Origin: Chondrosia reniformis
Taxonomy: Eukaryota > Porifera > Demospongiae > Chondrillida > Chondrillidae
Assembly: GCA_947172415.1 (NCBI GenBank)
Contig: OX359198.1
Span: forward strand, 4,991,401 to 5,055,400
Direction of reading: 5' to 3'
DNA: 64,000 nucleotides
Under the pieces are notes generated by a model. It was not told where the DNA came from. It searched no databases and saw nothing but the letters and a program-made list of their open reading frames with translations. A program made the position numbers and the translations under genes. Position 1 is the first letter of the stretch; each line of letters starts with the position of its first letter. Of the stretch, positions 3,001 through 49,995 are shown one piece after another.

Positions 3001-6000
3001 TGATAAGCCTTCAGCTAAGGAGAGGCACGGGGAGAAACTGTTTCATGTACTACAACAGGTTGAAACAGTTCGGTCACTTGCGAGAGGCCTAAAAGCTGCA
3101 CAGTAAGTCCAAAGATGGGCACTATTGTTGGGTCTTACAATCGTCCAGTGGCTTCATCCTTATGATCATGTAGAAAATTTGTGGAAAAAATGAGATCCGA
3201 CTTCAGTGAAGTTGCTAACATGGAAGAGTTCCTCATAGAACTGAGAGTGAAATGCAATCTCCTAAAATCTAGGTATTATAGCAGCACTACTACTGTACAT
3301 ATTATTTATGTTTCTGTGGCACATTTAGATTTGGAATTATCTAGAACACCTATTCTCTTTATGTGCATATGTTCAAATATGGTATAGACCACATACATAC
3401 TGTACGTACATATGTTTTGTATTGAGGCCACATCTCCTCCTCTCTGTGTTCATGCTATACGTATCTTTTAGTCCTTTGAGCATCTAGAGATGCAGTTGGT
3501 TCTTTTAAGACTCAGATGTTCCAAACCTGGGGGTCTTCTTCAGTGACTGATGGTGGCTGCTGGAAGTTGCCTCTTTTATATTTTCCCCTCCATGTCTGCT
3601 TCCTCTCGTGTGATTCTCACCAGGAACAGAAAAACAGAAATTATGAATATTAAATTGCCTCCAGGCTTAATGTAATATTCAGATCTGTCTTTAAAGCACC
3701 AGTTTTTAGCCTACTAGGCCTGATGGTGAGAGGTAAAGTGAATGTGTATCTGTCTGTGTGTTGGTATTCTATACACAGATGTGTCTAGACTTTCCTTGTT
3801 CTTCTTCACTTGCCCGTCCAGGAAGGGTATAGTACCATTGATCTCCTTCTCCATGCTAAACTGAATATTATCATTTCTTCAATTAAAGAAGCTGAGAAAT
3901 TTCCCCAATCACAATGCTCCCAGACAAAAAAGTTATCTACATACCTCGGCCATAACTTAGGCTTCATCAAAGCAGCTAAGAGGGCTTCTGTGATAAATCT
4001 TATTCAAGGCATTAAATTCCTGGAGGCAATTTACTTAAGTATAAGATAGGTTTGGAAATTTCTATCATCTAACCTTATAGAGATGTCCACAATAATTTGA
4101 ATGTTAAATTAATTTTGATGTTGTGATAGTAAAATATTCATATTGAATTTTACATATGTACCAGTTATAGTGAATATGACTTAAACATTACTTTGGAGAG
4201 AAATTACATTATTTTTAGGATTTAACCTGTATGTGATATTTTGCATGTATTTTTAAAAGGATTGCTGTTTGGATGAATGTTTAAATGTGTTATTTATCCA
4301 AGTTCTTCAATCCTCTTAAAACTCCCAATAGCATTGATTCTGACATTTCTGAATTAAAAGACCTTACTAAGGAGTGTGAGTTTGAAGCTTCTCAGCTAGA
4401 AATAGTGCAGGAGGTGCTTAAGGATTGGAAGCGTAAACAAACAGAATTACAAGACATTTTGCAAGTTAGCATTCTAAAAAAGAGGATTCATTTGGGAGAA
4501 TGTTTTGCTATATCTGAGTCACTGAATGTCCCCTTGCTAAAATCACCATTAATTACTGTATGTTTGCTTTATAGTTAGTACTGTAACTGTATGTATAGTG
4601 GTAATATGAATGGAGCATTGCAGTGGTAATAGTAACTCGGTGGGTGAGCATTGATCGATCAAAGCCAGTTGTCCTTGGGTTCAATTCCCAGTTTATGGTT
4701 CTTCATGTTTTTTTCCCTTTTCATGATGTTTGACTGTAACTACTTGTGGTTTGCCTATATCACTTTGATTATGTTAGTAGTGTTGCACTGTTGTGAACCA
4801 ACCAGCTAGGCATGATACATGTAGGCTTACACATGCACATGTCTTTTGTAGGCATTACATTAAAGGACTCTCTTTGTGACATCGTTAGTCTTTTATATCA
4901 CACTTCTAACCTATCCTTAATACTTGCATATGTAGGAGTCACGTGTAAGTGGTTTGAAAGAGGAAATACAAAGTTTCAGTGAAATATTTAATCAAATGTA
5001 CCAAGAAACAAAATCTAACTTAGAAACAGTCAGGGCTGATGTAGATCACCAAATGCACTACTGGAGTGACCCTGACCAAAGGTTCGCCTACATTTACACA
5101 CATTCATTACTCGCTAAATTTCAGAACTTTCAAGGTATCGAAAATAGTTTATTTTATTTTTGTATGTGAATATGCAAGTATGTGTACATGAACGTCATCT
5201 CAACTTTCACTGAAGAACCAGCTCTTATCAACTGCCAGTCAGCCACATTAGAACTCTATATAGGAAAGTAGATGTCTTAGCTGCAACACAAGAACGAAAT
5301 GTGTATGATTCATCCAATTGGATGATGACTTAATTAAAATGCTCCTACACCCAGTTAGATTATCTGAATCAGAAATGCAATTCATATAAGAGAATATCCT
5401 CAGCCACCATGAAAAATCTAAGATACCATTTTCCTACATGCTATGCCTATTCTGTAAAACAGCCTATAAGGGAACTAAACCTGAAGCTTCTACTCCAGCT
5501 GATCCTCAGCCTCTAATACCCCTTTCAGACAGGCCATTTAGAAGCGATTTTAAACTGGTTTCAACCCGGTTCAGGTGTTCACATTATGTTTCGAAAGCAG
5601 GTTCGATTCAGTTATCAAAACGTGTTCAACCCTGCTACCGAGCCGGGTTGAACACGGTTTCTCAAGCGAGTTATAATGGCAGATCAAGGACGAGTTTGGA
5701 CTGATGAAGAAGTAGAAGCACTGATTGCCTCATGGACAAGTTGAAAACGATCTCGCCATACCCAACTTCAACACGGGTTCGAACACACTTTGCCGCCATT
5801 TGAAAGGGATATAAATGAGACCTGGCTTCTATACAGACAAATACTGTACATGCTTATGCATATGTGTAATTATAATATACAAATTCATCTTGCTCAGTTT
5901 TGTGTGACTATTAAAATGTATCTTCTTTTTCATTTCAGTCTAAAGAAACTTCAGAATCTCTTTAAAGCTCTTAAATCAGCCCAAAGTATGTGTGTATTAG

Positions 6001-11273: not shown

Positions 11274-12827
11274 CTATATACTGGAATATATTTGATCTTT
11301 CCATAGATAATTCTCATCATTAAGTAATCTGGCAAGCTGCTGATTATAAGGTGCAAAGAATTCAACTAAATTCCTTTCTGTCTCATGGCTCATGTATACT
11401 GAGCTATTTGAAGCTGCTGAAACTCCTTGGTTTTTGAAAGACATTCCTGTCACAGTATTTTTGATGGCATTGATTGGCAATGGAAGGTCTAAAAAACTTG
11501 CAAGTTGATGCAAAATTTTACTCTGATTGCTAAGTTCTTCAGTACGAATGAGAAGAAATCTCTCTTTAGGAATATAATGAAGCCAGTAATATAATGAATA
11601 GTAATAGATTGAGCTTCCCATGTTGAGAAAGATGCAGCTAGGTATCCTCTTGTCTGGTACAATGTGATTTTTGTAATCATATATACAAATGCTACCATCA
11701 CCTCGAGTAAGTTCCATACACTTATTGAAGGCAGTTGTGTGTTGTAATACTGCTAAATGCAACCAGTATCTTTTCTTGATTTTATCGTCACGGTCATATT
11801 TATTTGTAGAATTCGAAAGTACCCCATTCCTTTTCAAGCTTGCAAAACATTGTATATTAAAGTAGTAAAAACCAGACCGAACTGAAAGGACTGGATCTCT
11901 CATTACAATTATAAACCTTTGTTGTTTGAAGAGTTGGGAGTACATGTATGGCATGAACCCGGGTAACACAGAAGTAGTAGTTGTTCTAAATGGCAAGCTG
12001 TATGCTGCTAAAACACTGCAATCACCGGTTATCCTCTTGGTATATTTGCTAATACTAAAGGCAGCTGGAACAAAATGAGCAAGATAGCGCTTAAAATACA
12101 ACGAACTTAGCGGTTCAGTTGTCTGGTAAGGATACCATGCCCACCAATGCAACTCTTTACTTACAGGACTAGCAAACAAATTAAATTTTGTTATTAAGGA
12201 ATAAAGTGTGGTAGTTCCTGTTTTAGCATAACCCAGTAGAAAGAAATAAGGCAGGCAATAAAGGTTTCGTTCTCGACTGCTTTCGGAATGTGCTCTTATT
12301 GGGACACGCAAGTTAGAAGTCTGGTAAGTCGCTATGTATTTCTCTTTTAGTTTAACTGAGTTTTCATCTAACTTCTGGCTGACACCGGGAAATTTGAGCT
12401 GGTTAATAACAGAAGGTATCTCGAAGTCGGAATACCAACACGGATTTCTAAGCTCGGAAATGTACTCATTCGGAAGATGTGACTTGAGCGATGCTATATA
12501 TTCATCCATTCTCAATAGTTTCTGATGCAGTTTGTTTTCTAGTGGCAAATTACGAACGTTTTCCGCTAAGTATTTTTGAATAGTATACGTATGTGATGGC
12601 GAGTGAGTCGTTATCGTTATCGTACTGACTCCGTATACACTAGTTGGAAATGTACGTGGTTTGCTTGGTAAATGAGATCCACTGACACTCACCGCCCCGC
12701 TGTTTATCTTCAACTCCTTCACGTGGCCACCTGTCTGTAGTACTAAGACTATAGTCAAAGAGACAACAGCAATTGCAAGAAGGCGATAACGCTTGAAGCG
12801 ACGCCCTAATACTCCATGCGTGCTCAT
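11274..12827 (-). CDS. Golgi-type carbohydrate sulfotransferase (CHST15-like), 517 aa
   Basis: Predicted type II membrane enzyme that transfers sulfate from PAPS to a glycan in the Golgi. Single exon. A short basic N-terminus is followed by a signal anchor at about residues 15-31 (RLLAIAVVSLTIVLVL). The 5'-phosphosulfate loop is at 196-208 (FLLGYAKTGTTTL), KELHWW at about 224-229, and the 3'-phosphate-binding motif at about 304-323 (RFIIVMRDPVLSVRSGFYYF). The KE-HWW motif and length resemble the GalNAc 4-sulfate 6-O-sulfotransferase group, but the acceptor cannot be assigned. It lies between two LINE A copies. An overlapping frame from 12897 could be an upstream ORF but has no family signal. 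Confidence 0.88.
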   Translation of the reverse strand: MSTHGVLGRRFKRYRLLAIAVVSLTIVLVLQTGGHVKELKINSGAVSVSGSHLPSKPRTFPTSVYGVSTITITTHSPSHTYTIQKYLAENVRNLPLENKLHQKLLRMDEYIASLKSHLPNEYISELRNPCWYSDFEIPSVINQLKFPGVSQKLDENSVKLKEKYIATYQTSNLRVPIRAHSESSRERNLYCLPYFFLLGYAKTGTTTLYSLITKFNLFASPVSKELHWWAWYPYQTTEPLSSLYFKRYLAHFVPAAFSISKYTKRITGDCSVLAAYSLPFRTTTTSVLPGFMPYMYSQLFKQQRFIIVMRDPVLSVRSGFYYFNIQCFASLKRNGVLSNSTNKYDRDDKIKKRYWLHLAVLQHTTAFNKCMELTRGDGSICIYDYKNHIVPDKRIPSCIFLNMGSSIYYYSLYYWLHYIPKERFLLIRTEELSNQSKILHQLASFLDLPLPINAIKNTVTGMSFKNQGVSAASNSSVYMSHETERNLVEFFAPYNQQLARLLNDENYLWKDQIYSSI

Positions 12828-13249: not shown

Positions 13250-13880
13250 TTACATGAGATATGATCGAGATAATACAAATAAAATTAAACTAAATTTGTT
13301 TTCATCTAAGGTCTTCAGTTTGAGAGCCCTTTTGAAAGAGAATACATCTGACTTTCCTTTAACCTCATATGGTAATTTATTATAATGAAATACCCCTTGA
13401 TACTCAAACGAGTATTTCAACATGTTGGTATGAGGTTGTGGAATATGTAGATAATTTGCTCCATGTGTACAAGAGTAAAAACACAAGTTCCTCACAAACT
13501 TATCCCTAAGATACTGGGAGCCCCTGCCAATTAAACATTGATGTACCTGACTCAGCATATGATTTTGGCGCCTCTGAGCCAGGGTAGTCCAATTTAACTG
13601 CTTCCTCAGGAAAGCACTTGGTGTATGTGGGGGTTTGTTTGGGATAACCCTCATAGAACAGTTTTGTACTCTCTCCAATCTCAATGAAAGTGCCTGGCTA
13701 CATGGGTGCCAAACAGTTGAACAATATTGGAGATGTGGAAGAACCAGTATACCAAGGTGTAGTATAATAGCTTTCGAGTATCTATACCGAAAGATATCTA
13801 CTAACTTGTCGTATATACTGTTGAAATGGAAGATCTATAGCCGATCTTAAAGCATTGATGTCATCAAATTTGCATCGTAT

Positions 13881-13925
13881 GCCATACTGATGAGTCCTAA
13901 AAAGGACGAAACAGCTGTCTATGGC
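13881..13925 (+). ncRNA. Type I hammerhead ribozyme (complete core)
   Basis: Stem I 5' strand GCCATA (13881-13886); core CTGATGA (13887-13893); stem II GTCC / GGAC (13894-13897, 13904-13907) with loop TAAAAA; core GAAA (13908-13911); a one-base-pair stem III C13912:G13917 closing AGCT; then GTC (13917-13919), with the expected cleavage after C13919; stem I 3' strand TATGGC (13920-13925) pairing perfectly with GCCATA. Every conserved core residue is present. ACAGCTGT around stem III is self-complementary, which would favour dimeric folding, as known for animal type I hammerheads with very short stem III. Confidence 0.85.
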
Positions 13926-14062
13926 TCGACCATCTTTTTGAGTGGCTAGGGGGAGACTCTGGTTCCCATCAAGCGAACTTCGGTTCCTCCCATTAGCTCA
14001 TTTGGCTCCTAAGGGGACATGAGTGGGCAAGGGTAATACCCAGAGTTAAATGATGATGACAT
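13881..14062 (+). mobile_element. Hammerhead-bearing SINE/retrozyme-like repeat inserted in LINE B
   Basis: Begins with the hammerhead and continues through GACCATCTTTTTGAGTGGC, ACTCTGGTTCCCATCAAGCG, GACATGAGTGGGCAAGGGTA and CCCAGAGTTAAATGATGATG. The LINE B reading frame resumes on both sides (AASAV before, KFDDINALRSAI after, minus strand), so this is an insertion. Related copies lie at 26305-26470, 40848-41030 and 42965-43125. Confidence 0.8.
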
Positions 14063-14773
14063 ACTGCTGATGCAGCAAAAACTTTCTTTCGGATAGCATG
14101 CAAGTATGTGACTCTTACAACTAAGATAAAGACCAAGATACACAAAGCTAAACTGATGACACTATTTCATCAGACAGCCTCAAGTGCACATTTTGCCCTG
14201 ACCTCATTGCCTTACTCCCTAACACCATATACTGAGTTTCACTAACATTATAATATAATCTTGAGATATTTAATTGCATTCTGTCCAACGAACAACTGCA
14301 GCTAGATCACTGTTAAGTGATGCTATAACTTCAATCATTTATATATATCTTTACCCAACAGTAAATGGCCACATCGTCTGCATATATATACATATTTATG
14401 TTGCACTTACTTGTCATTCTTGGGAGATCATTTAGATAAACAAAGGACCCAAGACAGAATCCTGGGGAACACCTCTCACTACTGATATATCGTGTCATCC
14501 AATGGCGCCACTCTCTGCTTCCTCCCTTTAAGATAGTTAGAAAACCACTGATACTCTTTACCAGTCCTTTAACTCCATAGCACAGCAACTTCTGAAGAAG
14601 TAAGCCACAGTCAATAATGTCGAAGGATTTACTTAAATCTACAAAGACAGCTCCAACACATTCTCTTTTATCCAATGCCTTACGCCAAGATTCCTGTGGA
14701 AATCTCGGAAATATCTTCCGCGTCCCCAGGAAAATACCGATAAAAAGACCGATTTTCGTTTTCTGTGACCAAG

Positions 14774-14821
14774 AAAATCACTTTTTTGAATTCCCAGCTG
14801 GGAATTCAAAAAAGTGATTTT
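14774..14821. repeat. Perfect 48-bp palindrome
   Basis: The two 24-bp arms meet at 14797/14798 (centre CCCAG|CTGGG) without spacer or mismatch. It lies between LINE B and the tail of LINE A. A second, imperfect palindrome centred on ATGTACAT and flanked by (TAA)n/(ATT)n follows at 14822-14895. Confidence 0.95.
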
Positions 14822-14879
14822 AATAATAATAATAATAATATATATCCTATATGTACATATAGGACATATATTATTATTA

Positions 14880-20021: not shown

Positions 20022-20768
20022 TTATGGGCAACTGCATGAACAGTATTGAATTGTAGGTATTCTCACTCTCCTCCAGCCACACTCGCGGGACCACCAGGAG
20101 TCTATCAAATTGTAACAGCAATCCCACATGAGCCCATCAAGGTAGTATGGAAGATCAGGTCTCGGTAGGCATCTCTGTCCTGTGTCGGCTGGAACGGAAC
20201 ATTGTGTCGTTTCATCAGGGCAAATTCCCGTAACATAATATCTTGGATAGAACTTTCTTGGAAGCTCGGTCCATTCAAATCTTGGCCGACAGGCTGCAAA
20301 GGTTTGTTCAGTCACCCATGCTTGGATAGCTTCTCTTGCCCCTGTTACATATGGCCTACCTGGATCCCCTAGTTCAAACAAAGTCGTACTGACTCTTCGA
20401 GGTTGAGCCCATCTGCCACCATCATCTGGTATTACATACCCGGGTGGTGGCGGACCTGTACCTTCTCGTCTTATGTCAGAAACACGCTCTTCATCAAAAT
20501 CAACACCAAGCACTCTCCTCAAAATTCCCCAATTAACCTGTCCATGTGGAAGAGGAATGTTTGGTGGAATTGGTTTCCAAGGTTCATCTGGACTGGCTGG
20601 TTCAATACCAATGAAGATGGGACCTATTGGTGATTCTATACCTCCTTCATATGAGAAACATGTTAAGATGGTATTGATGGGCTCCCTCGGAGGATATCCA
20701 TCTCTGAATTCAACAGCATGTATTCCAGCCACAAAGAGAAGCAGGAATATGCTAAGCTGGGCAAGCAT
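20022..20768 (-). CDS. Noggin-like secreted protein, 248 aa
   Basis: Likely secreted cystine-knot protein of the Noggin family, whose bilaterian members bind and block BMP ligands. Single exon, as in most Noggin genes. A signal peptide covers about residues 1-18 (MLAQLSIFLLLFVAGIHA). The C-terminal third shows the Noggin pattern: ACRPRFEWTELPRKFYPRYY (about 158-177), CSVPADTGQRC, LMWDCCYN, ECGWRRVRIPTIQYCSCSC at the end. About ten cysteines are clustered there. The N-terminal half is Pro-rich and divergent. A related gene lies at 23567-24458 on the other strand. BMP binding is inference. Confidence 0.82.
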   Translation of the reverse strand: MLAQLSIFLLLFVAGIHAVEFRDGYPPREPINTILTCFSYEGGIESPIGPIFIGIEPASPDEPWKPIPPNIPLPHGQVNWGILRRVLGVDFDEERVSDIRREGTGPPPPGYVIPDDGGRWAQPRRVSTTLFELGDPGRPYVTGAREAIQAWVTEQTFAACRPRFEWTELPRKFYPRYYVTGICPDETTQCSVPADTGQRCLPRPDLPYYLDGLMWDCCYNLIDSWWSRECGWRRVRIPTIQYCSCSCP

Positions 20769-21628
20769 TTCTACCTACATAAACAGTAGAAGAACAGAAT
20801 AGTCGGGTTGATCTGAGTATATAGCACACAAACAACTCACTGACATGCAAACAGTACACAAATGAATAGAATGGTGAGCTATCCGGGTATTGAACATTGT
20901 GCATGCACTTGTATATATGATAATTGATCCTACAGCAAGTCTCCATATATATTATGTCAATAGACACTATCCTACACAACAAACTCAGGTGATGTGAAGA
21001 TAACTTTAGCGGCATTACCTACAGTTACTGCGCGCTCTCAACGCAATAACGAGACAGGCAGATGGGTAAATACAATATAAAATATCGCAGGAACAATGAA
21101 TTTAACATGCCCTTTTAGAAAACAGTACAACAGATTTTAAGTCACTGCCTAGAAAATTAAGACACAGGCTACAGAATATTTGAAGACTTTACAAATTGAA
21201 TATCTGCTTGCAAATTGATTAAAAGACCGAACCTCTCGTATTAGCTATAATCATTGTTATGTTACGAATCCCACAAAAACTTAGAAAACATTGTAAAAAT
21301 TAACGTATGATTCCCAATATGTGTTTAACTCAAACTTATAACCAGTACAGCAAAGGGAACGACAGCTCTGCTGTGCGGAAGCGAATAGCGGGAGTATATA
21401 GGACAAGTTCTATAAAGACTATAATTTGTCAAATAATATTTCGGGGGATTGACAAGCAACTAGGTGTCTATATATAAAATTTATTACGTGACATAAGACT
21501 GAACTAGTCCTAGATTACTAATATTTGCAATACAAAGGAAAAAGGATTTACAAAAATCTCAATTAAAAGCGAAAACAATGCATTTAGATACAATAAGTAT
21601 ATGAAACGAGGCAGGCATGTTAACTCAC

Positions 21629-24923: not shown

Positions 24924-27441
24924 TCAATTTTGTGGTGGCCTCCAGGAGTGCACTTTCTTAACTACTGTAGAATAAGGAACATACTCCTGGTCACTTCCAG
25001 ACAGATTTTCAACATGAGATTGGTGAAATTTCCTTTCAACTGGTGGACATTTTGTTGGTGGATCATCAGTAATGTAATGAATCCATCTATGCCTATGCAA
25101 AGAATATAAAACAATGTTATAAAAATTAGCAAATTTCATATATCGTGTAATAAATGATGCAACAGTAGTTAAAACACCAATGGAAAAATAATTTATACAA
25201 TTGACTATATATTTATGCATTTTGATCAAATCCCATCAAAACAGCATTTAAATGGTGCAAAACATTACTTTGTACATTGTCAAATAACTCCCCCTTTACA
25301 CTAGATGAAAAATCCTTATACACAGTTTTCCTACATGCTATGCCTACTCTGCAAAAAAAGCCTATAGGAACTAAGCCTGAAGAGAGCTTTCGATGAGAAT
25401 ACAGGAGTCATCTCCTCTCTTCTTCTCCACTGGGCTATGCAGTCAGCTGTCTCTTTAAATTTCACCCTTCATCAGTGATCCTGGAAATCTTTGTCTTCTT
25501 TTTGATCTTTTGTGCATCCTTGGCTCTCTATGCTAAATCTAAAGGTCTCTCTTCTTGAACAAATAAATTTGGGTATGCATGATAAACTTACCATTCAGGT
25601 GGGATCTGACTGGCATCAACATCTTTTCTTTTATAATCAACCCACCTATTTCGACCTTAGAAAAAGATAAAAATTATCAAAACAAAAAACATTGCACAGC
25701 AAACAAATGAAACAAGACACCTTTTCTAAACAGACTCAAAATGCCGTAAGGTGTTCAAATTACGCTTCAGTCAACAACCCCTGTGGTCATCCTAATATAT
25801 TCTAGACAGAAGTCTATACATCAACTACAGCAATTAACTTATTAAATTGTTCTTGATTGTATAATATATTAGATAAAATGGTTCCTTGTTTAAAATACAA
25901 ATTAGTTTAGTGTAGCACAATATTAGACTGTGTAAAACTGATATACAAGTATTATTAGAGTACAAATCCTTCAGTTTGGCTTTACCCATTTTAATGATAC
26001 AAATTTAACATAAGTGTTCCAAATTAAGCAATTAGCTAATTAAGCCTGAGTACATGCACCTGGACCTGTTCCCAGTAGAATTTGGATTGGACATGTCACT
26101 GTATGCTCAATCAAAGTGTTTATAGACACAACACTTGTACCTACATACTGTATATTGGGAATTGAATGTGTATGCTTAAAGAATGCAAAATTGTGAGTTT
26201 TGTCTGCATCTGCTGTAATCCATTGATTTGACACCTAGTAAGTCTGCATACTAGTCCGTACACCTTCAGCTTCATCTCATACTCTTTTATTAAACCACAA
26301 TGTTCACTTTTACCTGTAATTTACCCCATCCATTCATGTCACTTAAGGAACACTATGGAACACTAATGGGTGGAACTGAAATCCACTTAATGGGAACCAG
26401 AGTCTCCCCTTATAGCCACTCAAAAAGATGGTGGAGTCATAGACAGCTGTCATCAAATGAGAGCAAAATGATGATAAAAATTAAAGCTATAAAATCAGCT
26501 TTACCGACTTTAAAGTCTATTTTTCAAGCCTTTAGATGCTAAGTAAATTGAAGAAGGGCTTGCAGGAGGTACACTGAGTTTTAATATTTATATATAGTCC
26601 CACAGCTCAGGTGAAAATGATAATAAACTATAGATTCCTAGAACCCCATGACAGAGCAGAATTGTCAGCCTCCAAAGAAAAGTAGAGAAGGCAATGACTG
26701 AAGTAAGGGTGCAGGTTTTGAAAAGAAAGGGGGCCTTGATGTACCATGCCCTATATACATATAAAATAAATGAATGGATTTTTTATGTTGATAAATTAAT
26801 GTATTTTCTGTACAGTGCTACATGGGCAAAGGCCCTATAGTGTCCTATGCACATGGTGCACTTTAATAATGATAATAATAAAAATGATAATAACCTTCGT
26901 GTCTGGAACCAACGGGGCTACAACGTGCCAATGGAAACCGCCTGGATGGTGTCACCAAGGTCAGAAGGAAGGTGTGGATACCTTCTGCCAATCCCACAGA
27001 CAGAGATGTGATAAGGAGGCTGGCGCCACTGCTGCACATGCAGAGGATGAAAAGTGAAGATCTACTTGCACCTTGACCACAGGTACGTACTCCTTCCAGC
27101 CTGTTGCCCTGGAAACTATGGGTTCAGTCAGACCAGAGTCCATGTCCCTCTTGAAGGTCCTTTACCACTGCATTAAGATGACTACAGGAGAGCCTCAGTC
27201 ATTTGCTTTCCTGATGCAGTGACTCTCTATGGCTGTCCAAATGGGGAATACCACTTTAGTGCTGAGCGCACTCAGGTCTCCCGATTTGTTCGATGACTAT
27301 TAGGGACAATTCATTTTTATTGCTATCATTGTATATGGACTACTTATCAATATTATCCACTCATTGTAAAGGTTAATTTTATGTTAATGCAGTATTTTAT
27401 TTTTGAGATTAGTTTTTCCCATTTCGATTATTTATTATATC

Positions 27442-39519: not shown

Positions 39520-42500
39520 ATGACTGAAGACGATCCGTACTTGAATAAATTGAATTTAATCCATCTTCGAAATATCAGGAGGCTGTTAGACGTTCCTGGA
39601 AAATGGGAAGAGTTTCTGATACACGCCTCTGAGCACGGAATTGATGGTCGCCCATCCCTCAATGCCCAAGATATTAAAAGCAATGTAGAATTTCAGATTA
39701 ATATCAAAAAAGAGAGTCCCACTGAAAAACTATTTAGGGAACTGGGAATGATGGGGTATCGCCAGAGCGACTTGATGTACTGGGCTAACATTCAAGGAAA
39801 ATTTAAACAAATTTATGACGTGCTTTGTACTAATAAACCAAATGGTGAGTACTGCATACATATATACAGATACGTACATAATTTTAGATCTTAATTGATG
39901 ATTGATATCAATTTTTATCCCACTGTTAAATAATGTGTTCCACTTCTAATCGCCATGTGACTACAATACTTTGTCTTACTATTGTGATTATGTATGCAGA
40001 AATAAAATGTGTGGCATTCTGTAAATATTTAGACCATAGTGTGGAAGAAACATTCTGTAAATAGTTAAGGTGTTTTTGGTTAATAAATAGCTTAGTGTGG
40101 AAGAAAACACACTGCAGTAGTAAATATTAGTATAAAGATGTAAAATTATTCAAATGTAGCCATTGTATTTCTTTAAGTAGAATACGAGTTTAGTTTTGTG
40201 CATGTATTACAGCTTCATATTAATATTTACTACTGCAGTGTTTTTTATTCCACACTAAGCTATTTATTAACAGTGTATATATCAGTATTCCATTTCTAAT
40301 TTTGACTATGAGGAAGTAACTGATGAATTCAAGTCAATATTCTTTTTTGAATATCACTTGTATTGTATAACCTCTAAATTTATTACACAGTAACAAAGTA
40401 CTTGTTAAAAATGGAAACCTTTAGGTACTTTTTAGTGTATATACCTTCCTAGTGTACACTGAATACTTGTTTGCACTATTGGTGATCTCACATATCTATT
40501 ACCTGTTAGCCCTATGACATCATCATGACATCATTGAAAATGGCAGGGGAAGTACCTAAGGGATTACAAACCACTTGTATTCTCTGATGCAAAAGATTTA
40601 TAATATCTGCATGTTTATATTTACATAATTACTGTTTTGTATTAAATCCTTTAGCTGTATCAAGGCAGAGAAGTGAAGGTGGTGGTACCATTACTGTAAA
40701 ACAACATGAGTCCTACAGATCTGGAAGAAGCAAGAGTTATGGAGGAGGTACTATTACTCTTGGTGACAACAATTTCGAGGTGAATAAATACATATAGGTA
40801 GAAGAATTGGCTTCTCCATATGTACATACATATAAATAGTATGACTTTATCATCATCATTTGACTCCGGATTTCACCCCACCCACTCATGTCTCCTGAGG
40901 AGCACAATGAGTGGAACTAAAGTTCACTTGATGGAACCAGAGTCTCCCCTTAGACAACTCAAGAGATGGTTGAACCTCCGTTGGTCTTTATTAGGACACA
41001 TCAGTATGGCATTGGTGGAGGTTTGAGTGGCTACTTTGCTCATAAGTACTCCTAAATGCTTGTGGTTATACTTTATCAGTAGATAAAGGATACAGCTAAA
41101 GTGTGGTTGGCCACCATATGAAAATAATTGGGGACTAAAATCCATAGTCAAATAAAGAGGATATCAAAGTTTTAAAATCGGCTTCAGATCTTAAATTCTC
41201 CTGTATTTTTCATTGTATGATTTTCTTATTCATTTAAAACCTGTACTCTGATCATGAGATGAGGATACCAGGGCTGTGAACACCTCCTTGAATCCAAACT
41301 TCTGCTACACCATTGTAAAGAATTTTATGCTACCAGATTGCCCTACAATCCAAACAATACTTTACAGAATTGAACCTTAATAATATCCTAATGCAGTGGA
41401 GTATATGATTATAACAAACATGGATTAATTACATAACAAAAAAATAAACAATTAAAATCTGATTTATAACAAACCCTTAGTGGCAAAACTGGGAAAATTT
41501 GGTTTATAAAAAAGCTTTCATGATCTGGTACTCTAATCTTTGATGTGTTAATCATACATGAGACACTAATGAATTTCATTAATTGCAGTCTCAAGTTGTA
41601 TATGTTTATCAATGTTAACAATGTCTCTTGAAGTTGTACGTCTATAAAATCATACAGCCATTTATAGCTTATTTTGATGTCAAAAACAACTGAAGCTGTA
41701 TACAGTACCTACGCGTATAGGTAGAAGGATTGGCTTGAATCCATACTTCTGCTGTACCAAACTGGATTCGCTATAAACAACTAAAACTCCACTAAATAGT
41801 ACCTAGCGTCAACACTCTCCCTTCGCTATACACAAAAATTCACTGTATGCGTTTGCATTATAAGCAACGGAAGTCCCATACTTAAGTATAGCTGCTTGGC
41901 TGGGACTTTAGAAGGGATTCGTTATAAAGTAAAGTTCACTATAAGTGATCTCGTTATAACGAGTTTTGACTGTATATCCTAAATTCTCACTGAAAGGTTA
42001 TACAAACTGTACTTTTTTATGTATTCCTATTCCTTATTGATAAAATATACTTTGCAACCTGTTGCTTAGCAATATGGCGGTGGAGATGTTGATAGCAAAC
42101 TTAAGAAATTGAATGAGGATGAGACAAAAGAAACGAGTTCACAAGAAAATGATGTTTTTCCCGAAGAAGATTTTGCTAAAGGAGACTCTGCAGATGTAGT
42201 TAAGGAAGTGGAAAAAAAGGAAGCAGAGAATGCAACACAGGAAACATACCAGACTGCTCCTCAACCAGGTAAATCTTCTTTTTTAAAATATTCAAGAATA
42301 ATTTCAGGCATGAAGTACGTATTTGCAGACTTCAAACTCATGAGATTTATGTATGTGTACTTGATTTTGCTGCAACCCTCAAAAGGATTTCACAATCTTT
42401 TGCCTAATTGCATCATACTGTATATGTATATATAAAAACACTTTCATAGTTTACGTATGTAGTATAATTTCAAAGACATGACTCACATGCGTATAGGTGT

Positions 42501-45094
42501 TACAATTTTAAAGGTAGAAATTTACAATTAGAACGGAATCATTGAAAATAGTGAAATTTATTCCCCTTGAAGATTTCCCCATAGTCCGGCATTAATTATT
42601 CAGCTTTTCTCCTCATGTTCCACTTCCCTGCTCAGTCTGACAGTAGTTTTTTACTCGTGGTTGAAAGGCCCGATGCAAAAGCGTTTATTTTATCATTCAC
42701 ACAGATCCTAAATTGGATATACAGAAATCAGGCAGTCCTACAGGCAGTGTGGTGCAGAAATCAGGCAGTCCTACAGGCAGTGTGGTGCAGAAAGGGTCCC
42801 AGGATAGTAAAGAAACTACTGAAAAGGTTGAGCATAAAACACTATTGGAAAAGGAGACTAGAGAAATTGAATATCGGAAAAGGCGTACTCTTCCTAACTC
42901 AAAGGATGCAACTACAACAGGTACATTTAGTTCTATTACTAAATTGTATTTTTGTATATAATATTGAGCTCACAGGATTATCATCATCATTGAGCTCTGG
43001 ATATTACCCCTGCCCACTCATGTCCCCTGAGGAGCACAATGAGCTAATGGGCAGAACTGAAGTTCGCTTGATGGGAACCAGAGTCCCCCCTATAATATAA
43101 TATCCAGAGTTGAATGATGATGATATCGATGCTTTAAGATCGGTTTTAGGTCTTAAAGTCCCCCTTTTTTCCATTATCTTATCTGTTATGTGTAAGTTAA
43201 TTGAGAGTTTAACGAAGAAGCAGCTGTCTCTATGCCCTCGTTATGGAAACAGCTGTTGAGTAAGGATGGCTGCAGATGTCTTATAATAAGGCCACTTTTA
43301 ATTGATTCAGCCTTACTCTATAGGGCGATATATAGCCACATTAGGCTCATAGCTGGACAGAGCTAGAATTGTCCATACTCAATTTATATATCTCATATAA
43401 ATCGTTTTGATGTACAGTACAGATCAAAAAAAAGGTAACGCTTCTTGTCGGTTTACGTTTAGCGATTATCGATTGTCGGTTATTTTTTTCCGTTTAACGT
43501 TTAAAGGGTTGTATCGGTTATTGGTTTACTGTAGCGTTTACCGTTTGACGTCTTGTCGGTTGTCGGTTATTCTCTAACGGTTAGTGCTGACGATTAACGG
43601 TAGATCGCTTTTGTTAACGGTTAATTTTTCCAATTAGCTCTCGCTTAGGTGTCGCTTTAAGGTGTAATTTATCACTGGGATGCCAACAAGTAGAGTTGGT
43701 AATGCCTATTACCACGTTTACTTGCCTTGTCTGCGATCCAACTGGCCTACCTTATCTGGCAATGATATCATTATTCCCACAGAACTGCTACCTATGTTAC
43801 AACCAGAGCACAAGATATTTCTCTTTCAGAACCTTGGAAGTAGAGTTTGAACAGTGTGTGTACTGCCTATTTTCAAAGACCTCTTTAGCAGCTAACTCAA
43901 AATATTAATTCAGTGACACTAGTACTAATACTTAGTTTTTGCCAGTGGGCTTTATTTGCTTAATATAACATAAGGCACAAAATTAATAAGATTCGTGCGA
44001 AAAATCGTTTTCCTGACTTATGAGCTTCGATTGTTTCGGCCGTTTCACATTGCCTCGTAGTGGGGAACGAGAAGCGGCTGAGCAAAACGTCTTCTGAATC
44101 GAGATCGCCATTTGCAAGGGTTCGTTTTCGCCGTTTCCGCCATTTCCGCCATTCCGCCGTTTATCCTGGCCCTTTAACTAGCTCGGTAGCTTTTTTATTG
44201 ACTCAGGAGTGCTTTTAACTGATCGCAACTATGGACTACGTTGCAATTATTTATCAAGGAAATGATTCGGTGCGCTACGACGATAAGGAGTTTCTAGAGA
44301 GAAGAAGCAAGCTAAGGCGATTGAAGGGCAGTCGGTGATAGGCATCTTGATCGATTGTATAAATAATAACAAGATTATGGTCATAATTTCTTCACGCTGA
44401 CTTTACACCTCGAAAGCTCACCCCTCTCGGCAGTTTGCGAAGTTACTGGTTAACGTTTGCTTAACGGTTATATCTCATTTATTACCGCTTAGTTCGATTC
44501 AACGGTTAACGGTTTAGCCCTTCATTAGCGATTAATGTTTATCGGTAAAACATCACCCTAAACGTTAGTCGATTTTTCTTTAGCGTTTACCCTTTATCGT
44601 TTATTAAAAAATCCTATCGGTTAGCCTTTAACGGTTAGCGTTTATCGGTTAGCTTTTAGCCCTTAGCATTTACCGTTTAACTTTTACCGTTACCTTTTTT
44701 TTGATCTGTACTGTAAATATAGATACGAAAATAATTTAATCATGATTATACCAAAAACGTTGCTTGCATTTTCACAGATTTCTTGGTTTGTTGATTTCTG
44801 AGTTGTCAGCACACACAAATACTTTGTGAGATCCCTACAGAAGAGAGTATTGCTGTACATTTGTTGTTAGCCTGTGAATGTGTTATATTCTAGTAGAAAT
44901 GGTAAAGGCTGTACTGGTAGATGTTGCCATGTTCTGCACTGTGCTTGACAACAGAGACAGTTATATTTATTATTATTATTCTATTAGAACAAGCTATCAA
45001 ACCCAGCCAATCAAAGCCAACCATTCCGTATGGAACTCTATCCTTTATTTTGGCTACAGCAACTTTATTGGTTTTTGCTTTGTATTTTATATAA
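39520..45094 (+). CDS. IRAK/Pelle-like death-domain protein with C-terminal tail anchor
   Basis: Probably a membrane-anchored innate-immune adaptor. Exons 39520-39844, 40655-40779, 42070-42268, 42705-42920, 44988-45094; 323 aa, all phases agree. Residues about 8-105 read as a death domain closest to the IRAK/Pelle type: LIHLRNIRRLLDVPGKWEEF, LNAQDIKSNVEF, KESPTEKLFRELGMMGYRQS. Then GGGTITV / GGGTITL repeats, an acidic disordered region, and an in-frame 33-bp duplication (SGSPTGSVVQK twice). The last exon gives TIPYGTLSFILATATLLVFA and ends YFI-stop, a single hydrophobic helix at the extreme C-terminus. No kinase domain. The architecture recalls MAVS, with a death domain in place of CARD. Function is inference. 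Confidence 0.75.
40079..40271. mobile_element. MITE with 50-bp inverted arms
   Basis: GTTAATAAATAGCTTAGTGT (40079 on) to AAATATTA is inverted at about 40219-40271 with few mismatches, around an internal segment of about 85 nt. Non-coding, in intron 1 of the death-domain gene. Confidence 0.85.
40848..41030 (-). mobile_element. Hammerhead-repeat family copy with decayed ribozyme
   Basis: The reverse complement begins ATGCCATACTGATGTGTCCT and then AATAAAGACCAACGGAGG: stem I 5' strand and part of the core remain, but CTGATGA is CTGATGT, and the GAAA and cleavage-site region is not recognisable. The rest matches the 13881 copy (ACTCTGGTTCCATCAAGTGA, GACATGAGTGGGTGGGGT). Confidence 0.75.
41700..41965. 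mobile_element. Mariner/pogo-like element end
   Basis: The right end CTCGTTATAACGAGTTTTGA then CTGTA gives, in reverse complement, TACAGTCAAAACTCGTTATA, a pogo/Tigger-like terminus next to TA. Internal CACTATAAGTGATC and CGTTATAAAGTAAAG repeats are typical. A matching left end was not located with certainty. Confidence 0.5.
42965..43125 (-). mobile_element. Hammerhead-repeat family copy flanked by its own inverted end
   Basis: TGCCCACTCATGTCCCCTGA, AATGAGCTAATGGGCAGAAC and TGATGGGAACCAGAGTC match the 13881 copy. ATCATCATCATTGAGCTCTG on the left and CCAGAGTTGAATGATGATGA on the right form an inverted pair. The ribozyme half is absent, replaced by the inverted tail. Confidence 0.7.
43415..44713. 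mobile_element. 1.3-kb TIR element with GTTTAACGGTTA-type subterminal arrays
   Basis: Perfect 26-bp terminal inverted repeats start CAGTACAGATCAAAAAAAAG and continue GTAACG, flanked by TA on both sides (43413-43414, 44714-44715), as in Tc1/mariner. For about 200 bp inside each end there are dense, imperfect CGGTTA, GTTTA, AACGGTT and CGTTTA strings. The GC-richer core (about 43680-44400) has no transposase that I can recognise; an ATG at about 44231 opens a short frame (MDYVAIIYQGNDSVRYDDKE) with no family match. Located in the last intron of the death-domain gene. Confidence 0.85.
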
Positions 45095-46096: not shown

Positions 46097-49000
46097 TCAT
46101 AAAGAGACATCAATTGAAAGAATAGAGTGGTTTGTTTGAAGTGTCTGTCTGATCTGAACTTGTATGGATTCAGGTACATTCTTCAGCGAGACTCTCTTAA
46201 GATGATTGTTCTGTGAGAGACCTTTTGCAACTGCAGTAGCTCTTTGTGTAATGATTATTTCATCTTTTTCACTAAAACTATGAACCTCCATCTGAAGAGT
46301 GTCAATATTCACTTGACTACAAGCTGATGTCAATCTGGACATGTCAAGTTCCTGTACATAACAAGAGATACAACATTACTGGGTACACTTCTCTCAACAA
46401 TCAACTATCATTACAAATTGAACAACATACTCCTAATATGGTGACTGGACTACATATAGAACATGTCATTATTAGATTTAGATTGAACAAACAAATAAAC
46501 AAAATGTACTATATTGTACAAATCATTTTAAATAAACAAACTTACTTTAGACCAAATTGGGTATGTCACTATCAACTCCTTCAAAGGACAGCTAATGGCT
46601 TCCAGTACTAGTAATGGATCAGACCTTAGAACATGAAGTGTCTCCAATTGAGGCATTGACACACACTGAGCTACATCTTCCTTCTTTAGACCTCCATAAC
46701 CTGTAATGAGAGTTGGTTATCAAATGTAACTAACTGTGAATATCACTTCACCTGAACCAACTAGTTCACTATATAGGACATGTCAACTGATAACAGTGGA
46801 GAGGAACAGTGGAGAGGTACAGTGGAGAGAGGTACAGTGGAGAGAGGTACAGTGGAGAGAGGTACAGTAGAGAGGAACAGGAGAGAGAGGAACAGTGGAG
46901 AGAGGAACAGGAGAGAGGTACAGTGGAGAGAGGAACAGTGGAGAGAGGAACAGGAGAGAGGTACAGTGGAGAGAGGAATATCTCTCAATCAAATACTCTC
47001 TTCACTGGTGACAGCACTTGAATACCATCTTCTGATACACAACTTACAACATATCAGACTAGACCAGTGTCAAGTGCTACATTCAACATGAAAGTGGTCA
47101 TCAGAACACTCACTGCAAAGTTTCAGCTTTTCAATTGATCTGCTAACAGAGACACACTCTAAAATGGATATAGCATACCCAAGTGTGAGTTCTTTCAATG
47201 TATTGTTGTCCTTAACCTTTGACCTCAGTAAGGATACTTCCTGCACCTTGATAAATACAAATGTACAGTATCTTGAAGCATTATTTAACAAACAGACTGT
47301 ACTGGACACACTCAATATACGTACATATACGTACGTATATGGTATTACAGTTTAAGGAGTGTCTACACATGTCCTCATGTCTCAGCTGAGATTTCACAGA
47401 AATACAATATTTATATAACAAGTAATACACTTACATCTTTAATGGGTTGGACAAAATTATGAGATATGAAGAGAGTTAGATTCTTTAGTTTCTTCAGTGA
47501 AAAGACTTCAGCCAAAGCTGACAGAGAAGTAGCTGTAAGAACTAAAAGTCTTAGTATCTCAAGTGATTGTACTGACTGAACAAGGCTCTTTGCATCTACA
47601 TAATAAAATTGCAACAATTCATAAACATATTACACATATACATACGTAAACTGGAATTATAGAAATTATATTGTCATCTCACCATTTATTGAAAAGTTAT
47701 TAAATCCAATTTTAAGTTTGACCAGAAAAGGGTTGTTTTGGCAAATCTTCTCAATATAATTGATTGGTACGATTGAAGAAACAAGTAATTCCTGTAAATG
47801 TGAACACTTGCTCAAGCAATGTGACAATGCCATCCAATCAAATTGAGAGAGGCTAGCAGCATGTATATCCAGTGTTGGCTGAAGAAGCTGCACAACTTGC
47901 TCTGTGAATGGAATGTTTTGAGACTCAAATAACGAGTGAAACAGGAACAGACTTCGATCCATATGATCAATCTCATTTGGTAGTGGTCCACTGAAAACTG
48001 CTTTCTGAACTGCTTTTGATTTCAATCCTGTCAGTCCACAGTAGAAACGGAATGCCATAGCAACTGAGGGATTATCCATGTTGCCACTCCAAAATTTCAC
48101 TTGTTTCTCCTCTGGCAGACACTTCAGCTCCTCTGCACTCAGAAACTCCTGAAGAGTAGCATGTTGGAGGCTGTATGTGCGAATGGTTGAGAATGCCACT
48201 TCCTCCAAGTGGACATTCAGGAGACCCATGCAGTCAAAGTCCTCTGGTACTGGACCCTCAAACCCAAACACATCTCCCACCGTCTTCTCATCAAACACAA
48301 GGATCTTTGGATCACTAAGGAGACCATCGAGACACAACTGGCTTAGCTTACGGACCAACTCAGGTGCTTCATGAGGCAAATCATTAAAGCTGGCAATGGG
48401 AGGCAATCGACTTTCTCCTTTCTTCTCTCTCAAGTATCGAAAGATGAGTTGCAGGAAGAAGGACTGGTAACAGCTGGTGATGGTGGATGGGAAGGACTGG
48501 CCCTCGTGTTCAAAGACAGAACACAATATGAACAGGTTGACTGGAATGTACGCTGCTCCATTTAGATCAGGACGACACCTCAGCTCACTAAAGAACTTGG
48601 CAGATTTTGATCTATCTTGCTTCAAAAAGAAATTCACAAATTCATTGATTTGTGTTTCGTTAAATCCTTGAATTTCAAAGCACTTGAGATGCAGCTGTGA
48701 TAAATGGCTGCAGGATCCAGGACGAGAAGTGATCAAAATTGTGGCTTCCGGTAGTAGCTTTCCATGTAAGAGCTGATTCAGACAGGAACCTTCCTCCTTC
48801 AGAAGATGGACAGCTTCATCAAGTCCATCAAACAGGAACAGAATGGACCTTCCCTTGCTCTTCTGCAACACACTTGACAGGCTCTGGAACACAATGTCTG
48901 TGTCCTTTCCATAGTAAGCAAGCAGATCTGGCAGGCTCTTGGCAGTAGATATGCGTTTCTCACGAAGTGGAAACAGCAAAACTAGATCAAAGTCACTCTT

Positions 49001-49995
49001 GACTTCTCCAAAGGCATACCTTCTGGTAAGATGGCGGAGTAGGGTCGTTTTGCCAATGCCCGGAGTTCCAAATATCAGTTTTACACAATTTTCATCTTTA
49101 GCTAGTATCCTATCAGAAGGGATGGTCTGGTTGCCATGGCTACCAACCCACTCACAGTTGGCTTTACGCATGTTCTCCAGGAAGGCCTCAGCATTTTGTT
49201 TGGTCTTTTTAAATGGATCCTCTTCAACTACTCTCAGTTCTACATACTCCAATTTTGGAGCTACCTCGACCGGCCGAATTCTCTTATAAGTAGATTTAAC
49301 TGAATCGGAGTACACTGAGAGAAGCTGTAATACAAAAAATGAAAGGCGTTGGTAAAGATAATAGTGAGCCTTAAATCATACCAAAACAATTCTAAAGTGA
49401 AAGCTTGCTTGAGTTTTAGAGTATAATATACAGCTCGTAGAGACATATAGACCAGTATTAGCTATATTTGTGACTTGTAAAGTACCTGATGTTGAACTGA
49501 GGGAGTGATGGACTGATGTTGAGCAGAGGGAGTGATGGACTGATGTTGAGCTGAGGGAGTGATGAACTGAGTTGTCTGTAAAAACACATCAATCAGTCGA
49601 GCTAGTTTTATATTGTTTTCATGAGCACTGTCCTCCTTCAAACACTTTGACACTTTCTTCAGTTTCTCAAGAGACGGATCGCCATCTAGGATACTGTAGA
49701 ATTGGCTGTTCGCCGCTTCGAGCTGTACAGCTGGGCCGATCCGCTCAAACTCTCCTCTGTCGATGACACCCGCAACGCGAAGGCGTGAGGCAACGCGTCT
49801 CACATCACAGCTCTCTGTCAAGTGGGCGTGGAGGGTTTCGTTTAGAAACTGGCGAACCTCGCGACTCGTTGCTAATTTAAAAGAATAAGTAGAGTGAATG
49901 CAATGTCATTGGAAGGAAAATTAAGGAAAAAAAGCGTTACCTGAAGCTTCTGTGGACCTGGGATTACTAAATAGGGCACTCCACCATTGACCCAT
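46097..49995 (-). CDS. NOD-like receptor, CARD-NACHT-LRR, 928 aa
   Basis: Intracellular pattern-recognition receptor. Minus-strand exons: 49995-49941, 49871-49486, 49324-47683, 47595-47435, 47246-47114, 46700-46546, 46351-46097. Residues about 20-125 are helical and CARD-like (REVRQFLNETLHAHL, LRVAGVIDRGEFERI, FYSILDGDPSLEKLKKVSKC). A linker of three ITPSAQHQS-type repeats follows. NACHT: Walker A GTPGIGKTTLLRHL at about 233, Walker B ILFLFDGLDEA at about 308, then ATILITSRPGS and a winged-helix/helical region (SLQHATLQEFLSAEE). The last four exons are leucine-rich repeats (SLEILRLLVLTATSLSAL, NTLKELTLG, HLKRVSLKNVP), one repeat or so per exon. Start chosen from the upstream exon MGQWWSALFSNP. 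A partial paralogue lies at 61095-64000. Confidence 0.9.
46795..46975 (+). repeat. GTGGAGAGAGGTACA minisatellite in NLR 1 intron
   Basis: About a dozen copies of a 15-bp unit (AGTGGAGAGAGGWAC and variants). The homologous intron of NLR 2 has a shorter array at 63378-63472, so the array predates the duplication and has changed length since. Confidence 0.9.

Follow-up and report, generated by a model that had tools for sequence, protein, structure and literature searches.

The window, by which we mean the whole 64,000-nt stretch of DNA that was analyzed (C10:4991401-5055400), comes from the sponge Chondrosia reniformis, the genome of which was searched as 117,379,552 bases on 15 contigs. A short insertion carrying a hammerhead ribozyme splits a decayed LINE in this window. 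T1 and T2 in the feature list designate two recurrent outer ends of insertions of this family, which are described below.

13250..13814, minus strand: host element, the C-terminal part of a decayed LINE, split by the insertion (open frame 13250-13834)
13815..13824: left target-site duplication, ATACTGTTGA, with one mismatch to 14061-14070
13825..14060, plus strand: 236-bp retrozyme insertion of subfamily A with two arms, truncated at its 5' end
13825..13866, minus strand: short inverted left arm, the T2-T1 tail segment (subfamily A minus-strand match at 13823-13866, unit positions 173-216)
13864..14060, plus strand: right arm, from ~23 nt upstream of CTGA to site T2 (GATGATGAC)
13881..13925, plus strand: type I hammerhead ribozyme (RF00163, 43.1 bits; predicted cut 13919/13920)
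14061..14070: right target-site duplication, ATACTGCTGA, which pairs with 13815-13824
14334..14777, minus strand: reverse transcriptase region of this decayed LINE (RVT_1, 30.3 bits; cut-off, 29.6)

The window copy is a truncated single-unit insertion within the decayed LINE. The frame at 13250-13834 had no Pfam match and was assigned to the LINE by eye; once the element and one duplication were removed, the LINE-like frame was still open across the site. The duplication, ATACTG(T/C)TGA at 13815-13824 and 14061-14070, is weak evidence on its own because 31 of 399 shuffled flank pairs scored as high. In the left arm the match to the unit ended ~14 nt short of T1 and was followed by CCATT.

The presence of a type I hammerhead at 13881-13925 was confirmed with the Rfam covariance model RF00163, which matched over its full length (model positions 1 to 45 of 45; 43.1 bits compared to a gathering score of 34 bits; E value, 1.1e-7), and no further Rfam match at gathering score was found in the 64,000-nt window. 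All of the parts listed in an initial annotation made from the letters of the DNA (a 6-bp stem I, CTGATGA, a 4-bp stem II with a 6-nt loop, GAAA, GTC, and a self-complementary stem III) proved to be in place. Stem I is GCCAUA/UAUGGC (6 bp) and is followed by CUGAUGA; stem II is GUCC/GGAC with the loop UAAAAA and is followed by CGAAA; and stem III is the palindrome ACAGCUGU. Self-cleavage is predicted between C 13919 and 13920. The annotation had further called stem III minimal and stated that hammerheads with a short stem III act as dimers, and the folding predictions agree, with a stem III that was weak within a single molecule and strong between two. The minimum-energy fold of a single strand was not the full hammerhead; in it, stem II extended to 5 bp and closed a 4-nt loop, and other pairs formed around stem III. 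Two molecules co-folded as a double hammerhead in which stem III was 8 bp long (-34.7 kcal/mol, versus -14.6 kcal/mol for one molecule).

For the window copy, the suggestion of self-cleavage into units or circles was not supported. With one hammerhead and 236 bp, compared to a unit of ~354 bp, this copy could be cut once and could not yield a unit or circle alone, whereas family copies with two or more tandem hammerheads could release either. Two other features were looked for and rejected. ARAGORN detected no tRNA-derived SINE head in the window, and a coding frame from the ATG within CTGATGA, as in the anole element, ended after ~19 codons in subfamily A when inspected by eye.

The description of the repeat as dispersed was borne out by at least 113 genome matches to window positions 13700-14150. 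The core pattern CTGANGANNCCNNNNNNGGNCGAAACAGCTGTC had 200 exact matches (106 + 94) in the 117 Mb, versus none (0 + 0) for the reversed control, and these matches are therefore not due to chance. At least 65 matches to RF00163, at least 51 of them over the cut-off, were found among the 73 that were scored out of 11,921 first-look candidates. The loci that were fetched provided 81 hammerheads, 54 of them distinct over positions -20 to +49. Because these hammerheads were chosen by part of the core, it is the stems, and not the invariance of the core, that are informative in this set.

The stems define two subfamilies, A (GCCAUA/UAUGGC and GUCC/GGAC) and B (ACCACA/UGUGGU and GCCC/GGGC). Among the 54 distinct units, compensatory changes between the subfamilies were found in stem I (T-A in 33 and C-G in 16; G-C in 33 and A-T in 18) and in stem II (T-A in 35 and C-G in 18). 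In an outer helix beyond an internal loop (UAU/U in subfamily A), the first three pairs covary, for example C-G in 27, A-T in 9, T-G in 5, and T-A in 3, and pairs further out are formed in a minority of the units. Over all 23 pairs, standard pairing was present in 949 of 1,242 cells, compared to 27 to 35% when the partner was slid by 1 to 3 positions. One A unit and one B unit that were compared were identical at 37 of 45 positions of the hammerhead and at 192 of 309 others.

Conservation within subfamily A was evaluated in 27 units from stretches for which DNA similarity was at least one of the fetching routes. The core is well conserved among these copies, since 22 of the 27 units have all 12 bases of the catalytic core and cut site. 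Differences from the reference copy were found at 18 of 1,160 positions in the hammerhead and at 105 of 2,887 positions in the flanks (Fisher P = 3e-4), a comparison in which array units are non-independent, the reference is one real copy, and the 13700-14150 query itself contained the hammerhead.

The family unit is 354 to 359 bp long. In stretch L028, units of 354 bp lie in tandem on the minus strand and an arm on the plus strand comes after them, and L069 contains five head-to-tail B units with a spacing of 359 bp, four with intact hammerheads over the Rfam cut-off and a fifth with a decayed one. Tandem units of 354 and 359 bp, each with a type I hammerhead, are within the range of non-LTR retrozymes (~150 to 450 bp). 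No long frames were noticed by eye inside the units among frames of ≥90 amino acids at 26 loci. From its sequence, the family fits the known metazoan non-LTR retrozymes, is non-autonomous, and in this instance is found in a sponge, C. reniformis.

In order to describe the insertions, loci were merged to 68 stretches with 74 family intervals, of which 69 were used and 5 were dropped (short flank or length). A duplication score of ≥9 was reached by 39 of the 69 insertions but by only 11 of the 399 flank pairs that had been shuffled. The family thus has target duplications that exceed 4 bp, as non-LTR retrozymes do. Most insertions consist of two head-to-head arms between target duplications, which vary in length from 10 to 18 bp. 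The inner ends of the arms are truncated at varying points, and some arms hold several units. For example, the insertion at C3:2242113 is a 1,344-bp structure of two minus and two plus units between CAAAAGAAGAGATGTC and CAAAAGAAGAGATGGC. Such composite arrays are single insertions. Inner (5') arm ends seem to cluster at A unit positions 220-230 and 331-335, that is, just at T1 and ~20 nt upstream of the hammerhead, with some of them common to related copies. Such clusters could reflect the place where transcription begins, a halt at structure, or shared ancestry.

The outer ends recur at two sites. T1 is CCCCTATTTTTTCC in subfamily A (unit position ~230) and AACTCCCTTT in subfamily B (position ~225). 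T2 is AATGATGATGA in A (position ~179) and TTATTTCTGATC in B (position ~184), which places it ~41 to 51 nt upstream of T1 in the unit. Forty insertions, the 39 with a duplication score of ≥9 and the window copy, were classed by script, with rules that were drawn up after 36 end pairs had been viewed: 29 were T1/T2, 5 were T1/other, 3 were T2/other, 2 were other/other, and 1 was the window copy, which has an incomplete T1 arm and T2. The script found neither T1/T1 nor T2/T2 insertions among the 40, and C9:2976889 looks T1/T1 by eye. Ten of the 40 fell outside T1/T2 according to the script; on inspection by eye, T1/T2 also applies to C5:1944500 and C2:7588169, and others are single-arm or diverged copies. 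Since some loci were fetched by tail sequence, the count was also split by fetching route, which gave T1/T2 ends in 13 of 20 insertions that were never tail-fetched, plus the window copy, and in 16 of 20 with any tail fetching. Four insertions in satellite DNA (C8:2407540, C8:2969014, C8:2499233, and C12:2923658) resemble each other in their duplications and, in part, in structure, and may thus be non-independent, possibly one event copied. Head-to-head arms with unequal outer ends and a target duplication, the structure of Penelope-type insertions, were thus present in 29 of 40 cases by script.

The extent of the arms bears on the form of the template. Arms crossed the cut site in 79 of 107 cases over all loci. 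Because many loci were fetched by their hammerhead, the stretches fetched by tail only were used for this question; among them, 15 of 29 arms of ≥60 bp crossed the cut site, and 1 started within 3 nt of the cut. Many templates were thus not linear monomers cut at that site, and uncut multimers and religated circles would both fit. A few arms have a length of almost exactly one unit, running from T2 to T2 at C7:3424748 and C3:5189796 and from T1 to T1 at C1:1208012, as would be expected from one lap of a circle.

Penelope-like elements are present in the same genome. A search with a Penelope-like protein had at least 7 matches over nearly all of its 750 residues with 97 to 100% identity, among the 60 that were scored of 1,706 candidates. 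The seven near-complete copies have frames of 750 to 831 amino acids, six without and one with a stop in the match. A second group at ~71 to 75% identity also has long frames. The domains detected were RVT_1 and, barely over the cut-off, GIY-YIG. Both groups share a 31-nt stretch after AAAGATA that ends in AATCCTTATTC. This stretch is the Penelope tail described in PMC3846280 and PMC11167929.

Genome matches to the Penelope-like end had a similar arrangement. There were 40 long matches that were scored, and 9 partial matches on the opposite strand beside long ones stopped at query positions 48 to 56, which correspond to T2. An unequal pair of ends with duplications of 8 to 17 bp was found in 8 of 15 short stretches, including L099, which is ambiguous and within a satellite. 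In the remaining 7 of 15 the inverted motif was not found, although L102 and L103 do have an inverted partial match in the search results. The segment between T2 and T1 is predicted to fold with -16.0 kcal/mol in subfamily A, -7.3 kcal/mol in subfamily B, and -3.3 kcal/mol in the Penelope-like tail, values that stand without a shuffled comparison. Satellite DNA with the motif ACTAGTTGTATG was found in the flanks of 11 of 41 insertions of subfamily A and 1 of 16 of subfamily B. Among the Penelope-like 3' ends, it flanks 5 of 6 that are long and 2 of 8 that are short, compared to 0 of 320 bins of the window, which is a small background. Subfamily B rarely has this target, which counts against the mode of movement proposed below. 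In L070 (3387-4310), the Penelope-like end region and a hammerhead-like motif occur twice per orientation around a satellite stretch.

The tails of the two Penelope-like families differ in sequence from the retrozyme A and B tails. In the 3' regions of these families the A tail had no match, and the B tail had no whole-tail match as an element end; a 58-bp match to the B tail in L071 (83% identity), just outside a Penelope-like element, was taken as a separate B fragment. The four places fetched in the A-tail genome search for an autonomous partner were short family copies. No autonomous element with an A or B tail was found among the places fetched in the A-tail search or in the 3' regions of the two Penelope-like families, and no Penelope-like element adjoining retrozyme copies was noticed by eye among the frames of 26 loci. 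A hammerhead-like motif (CTGAAGAAGACCC..GGGTCGAAACG) is visible in the Penelope-like elements; the Rfam search had no hammerhead match in L070 or L071 at E values up to 0.5 or in six further stretches at E values up to 1. The retrozyme hammerhead, in contrast, is a classical type I over the Rfam cut-off. A 618-amino-acid frame in L072 (2147-4000), found via GIY-YIG, adjoins repeats of a kind that is likewise present on the flanks of the B array in L069.

These comparisons suggest how the family may move. We consider it probable that this is a non-autonomous sponge retrozyme, tandem or circular RNA of which is moved by a Penelope-like reverse transcriptase into two-armed T1/T2 insertions. A source locus with tandem units would be transcribed, and the hammerheads, probably as dimers, would cleave some of the transcripts. 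A Penelope-like reverse transcriptase that carries a GIY-YIG nuclease may then bind multimers that stayed uncut or circles formed by religation. As read from the DNA, the target is broken with a stagger of ~10 to 18 bp, and the insert has two head-to-head arms, one with T1 and the other with T2 as its outer end; either arm may span more than one unit. By analogy with the purified anole Penelope-like element, T1 and T2 would be the start sites of reverse transcription, with each target end priming one arm. In that system (PMC11167929), the Penelope tail is the stretch between two reverse transcription start sites, and both target strands are cut and extended. The start sites did not differ between the two strands in vitro, whereas the ends of the sponge retrozyme do differ. 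Head-to-head inverted repeats with duplications and a 31-bp tail on one repeat are also described for Penelope-like elements in an excerpt of PMC3846280.

The initial annotation had linked short-stem-III hammerheads to Penelope-like repeats. That link stands in spirit, but its reason does not, because the link is carried by the ends of the insertions and not by the ribozyme itself. The likeness of the end pairs to those of Penelope-like elements supports Penelope-type mobilization, which so far had only been proposed for animal retrozymes. The retrozyme unit, with ~354 bp and no reverse transcriptase or GIY-YIG frame, is at most a non-autonomous follower of these elements. More generally, Penelope enzymes may move animal retrozymes in trans by two-ended target-primed copying, in which both ends of a staggered break would prime on one multimeric or circular retrozyme RNA, the first at T1 and the second at T2, so that the T1/T2 signature would mark the mover in any animal genome; we lean toward this broader proposal, with less confidence than for the sponge family.

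Whether the hammerhead contributes to this process can be argued both ways. It could be a relic without present use that spreads with the repeat while the RNA copied in the Penelope manner is uncut. The cut site usually lies within the arms (in 15 of 29 in the tail-only stretches, whereas 1 arm starts no more than 3 nt from it), and hammerhead-dead anole RNA was inserted as well in vitro (PMC11167929), so that insertion may not require the hammerhead. However, the hammerhead is the best-kept part of the A units (18 of 1,160 differences versus 105 of 2,887 in the flanks; P = 3e-4, with non-independent units), and its stems covary between the subfamilies. Thus, a relic seems unlikely. A SINE-like element moved by a LINE, with the inverted arm made by twin priming (the second target strand priming inside the same RNA), is less likely still. 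LINE machinery also gives duplications of 10 to 18 bp and 5'-truncated, 5'-inverted copies, and LINE reverse transcriptase fragments adjoin the copies in L001 and L033. In twin priming, the inverted part begins at varying internal places. The second outer end here instead recurs at a single site, T2, at least one complete unit is contained in many of the arms, and the Penelope-like elements of the same genome have the same end pairs. A DNA transposon of the cut-and-paste or fold-back type, with the hammerhead lying by chance in its terminal inverted repeats, is very improbable, for although many copies resemble inverted repeats with target duplications, their ends are unequal (T1 versus T2), the duplications range from 10 to 18 bp, arms are multi-unit, inner truncation varies, and no transposase adjoining the copies was noticed by eye among the frames of 26 loci.

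The metazoan non-LTR retrozymes described in the main text of PMC7229834 are likewise non-coding repeats of a few hundred base pairs with low GC content and type I hammerheads, tandem and dispersed, with duplications of more than 4 bp, a weak stem III, and co-existing Penelope-like elements. The head-to-head arms with T1/T2 ends are a difference, since the word "inverted" is absent from that main text, as are sponge, Porifera, and Amphimedon. Plant LTR retrozymes, as summarized there, are also non-autonomous, with hammerheads and a passage through circular RNA that is thought likely, but their hammerheads are type III within long terminal repeats, and their duplications are 4 bp long. The Penelope-like elements in PMC11167929 and PMC3846280 share with the sponge family the head-to-head arms, target duplications, partial tandems, hammerheads, and a tail of ~30 to 40 bp at one of the two ends; the retrozyme differs in lacking a reverse transcriptase and nuclease and in its tail sequence.

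In its discussion, PMC7229834 considers Penelope-like elements strong candidates for moving animal retrozymes because hammerheads, tandem copies, and hosts are shared, and according to an excerpt of PMC7761336 the partner cannot be told from any motif in the retrozyme repeats. If the reading given here is true, the pairing of T1 with T2 ends would provide such a motif, one that could be read from assemblies already available and put to the test in the purified anole system. The family itself belongs to the known metazoan non-LTR retrozymes, and it is the paired ends that look new. A sponge would also be added to the record of retrozyme hosts. No report of hammerhead ribozymes in sponges (Porifera) was found in the open-licence literature; the single mention of a sponge in PMC7761336 belongs to a reference about microRNA sponges. 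Early surveys of animal hammerheads may have included a sponge.

Further sequences related to the family are present in the window. A second subfamily A insertion, without a hammerhead, is located at 42977-43174; its minus arm (42977-43092) ends at T2, its plus arm (43114-43174) ends at T1, and ATTATC is a 6-bp candidate duplication. Older A copies are found on the minus strand at 40849-41134 (77% identity, with a decayed hammerhead) and at 26363-26450 (88% identity). A fragment at 2859-2903 resembles the B unit (91%), and one at 3475-3627 resembles the Penelope-like end region (~78%). Positions 14771-14825 form a near-perfect palindrome (CACTTTTTTGAATTCCCAG.CTGGGAATTCAAAAAAGTG) with weak, sub-threshold miRNA matches on both strands. 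Pfam matches in other open frames of the window were a sulfotransferase (11274-12827, minus strand), Noggin (20022-20774, minus strand), NACHT (47666-49375, minus strand), and the transposase helix-turn-helix HTH_Tnp_4 (62329-63015, plus strand).
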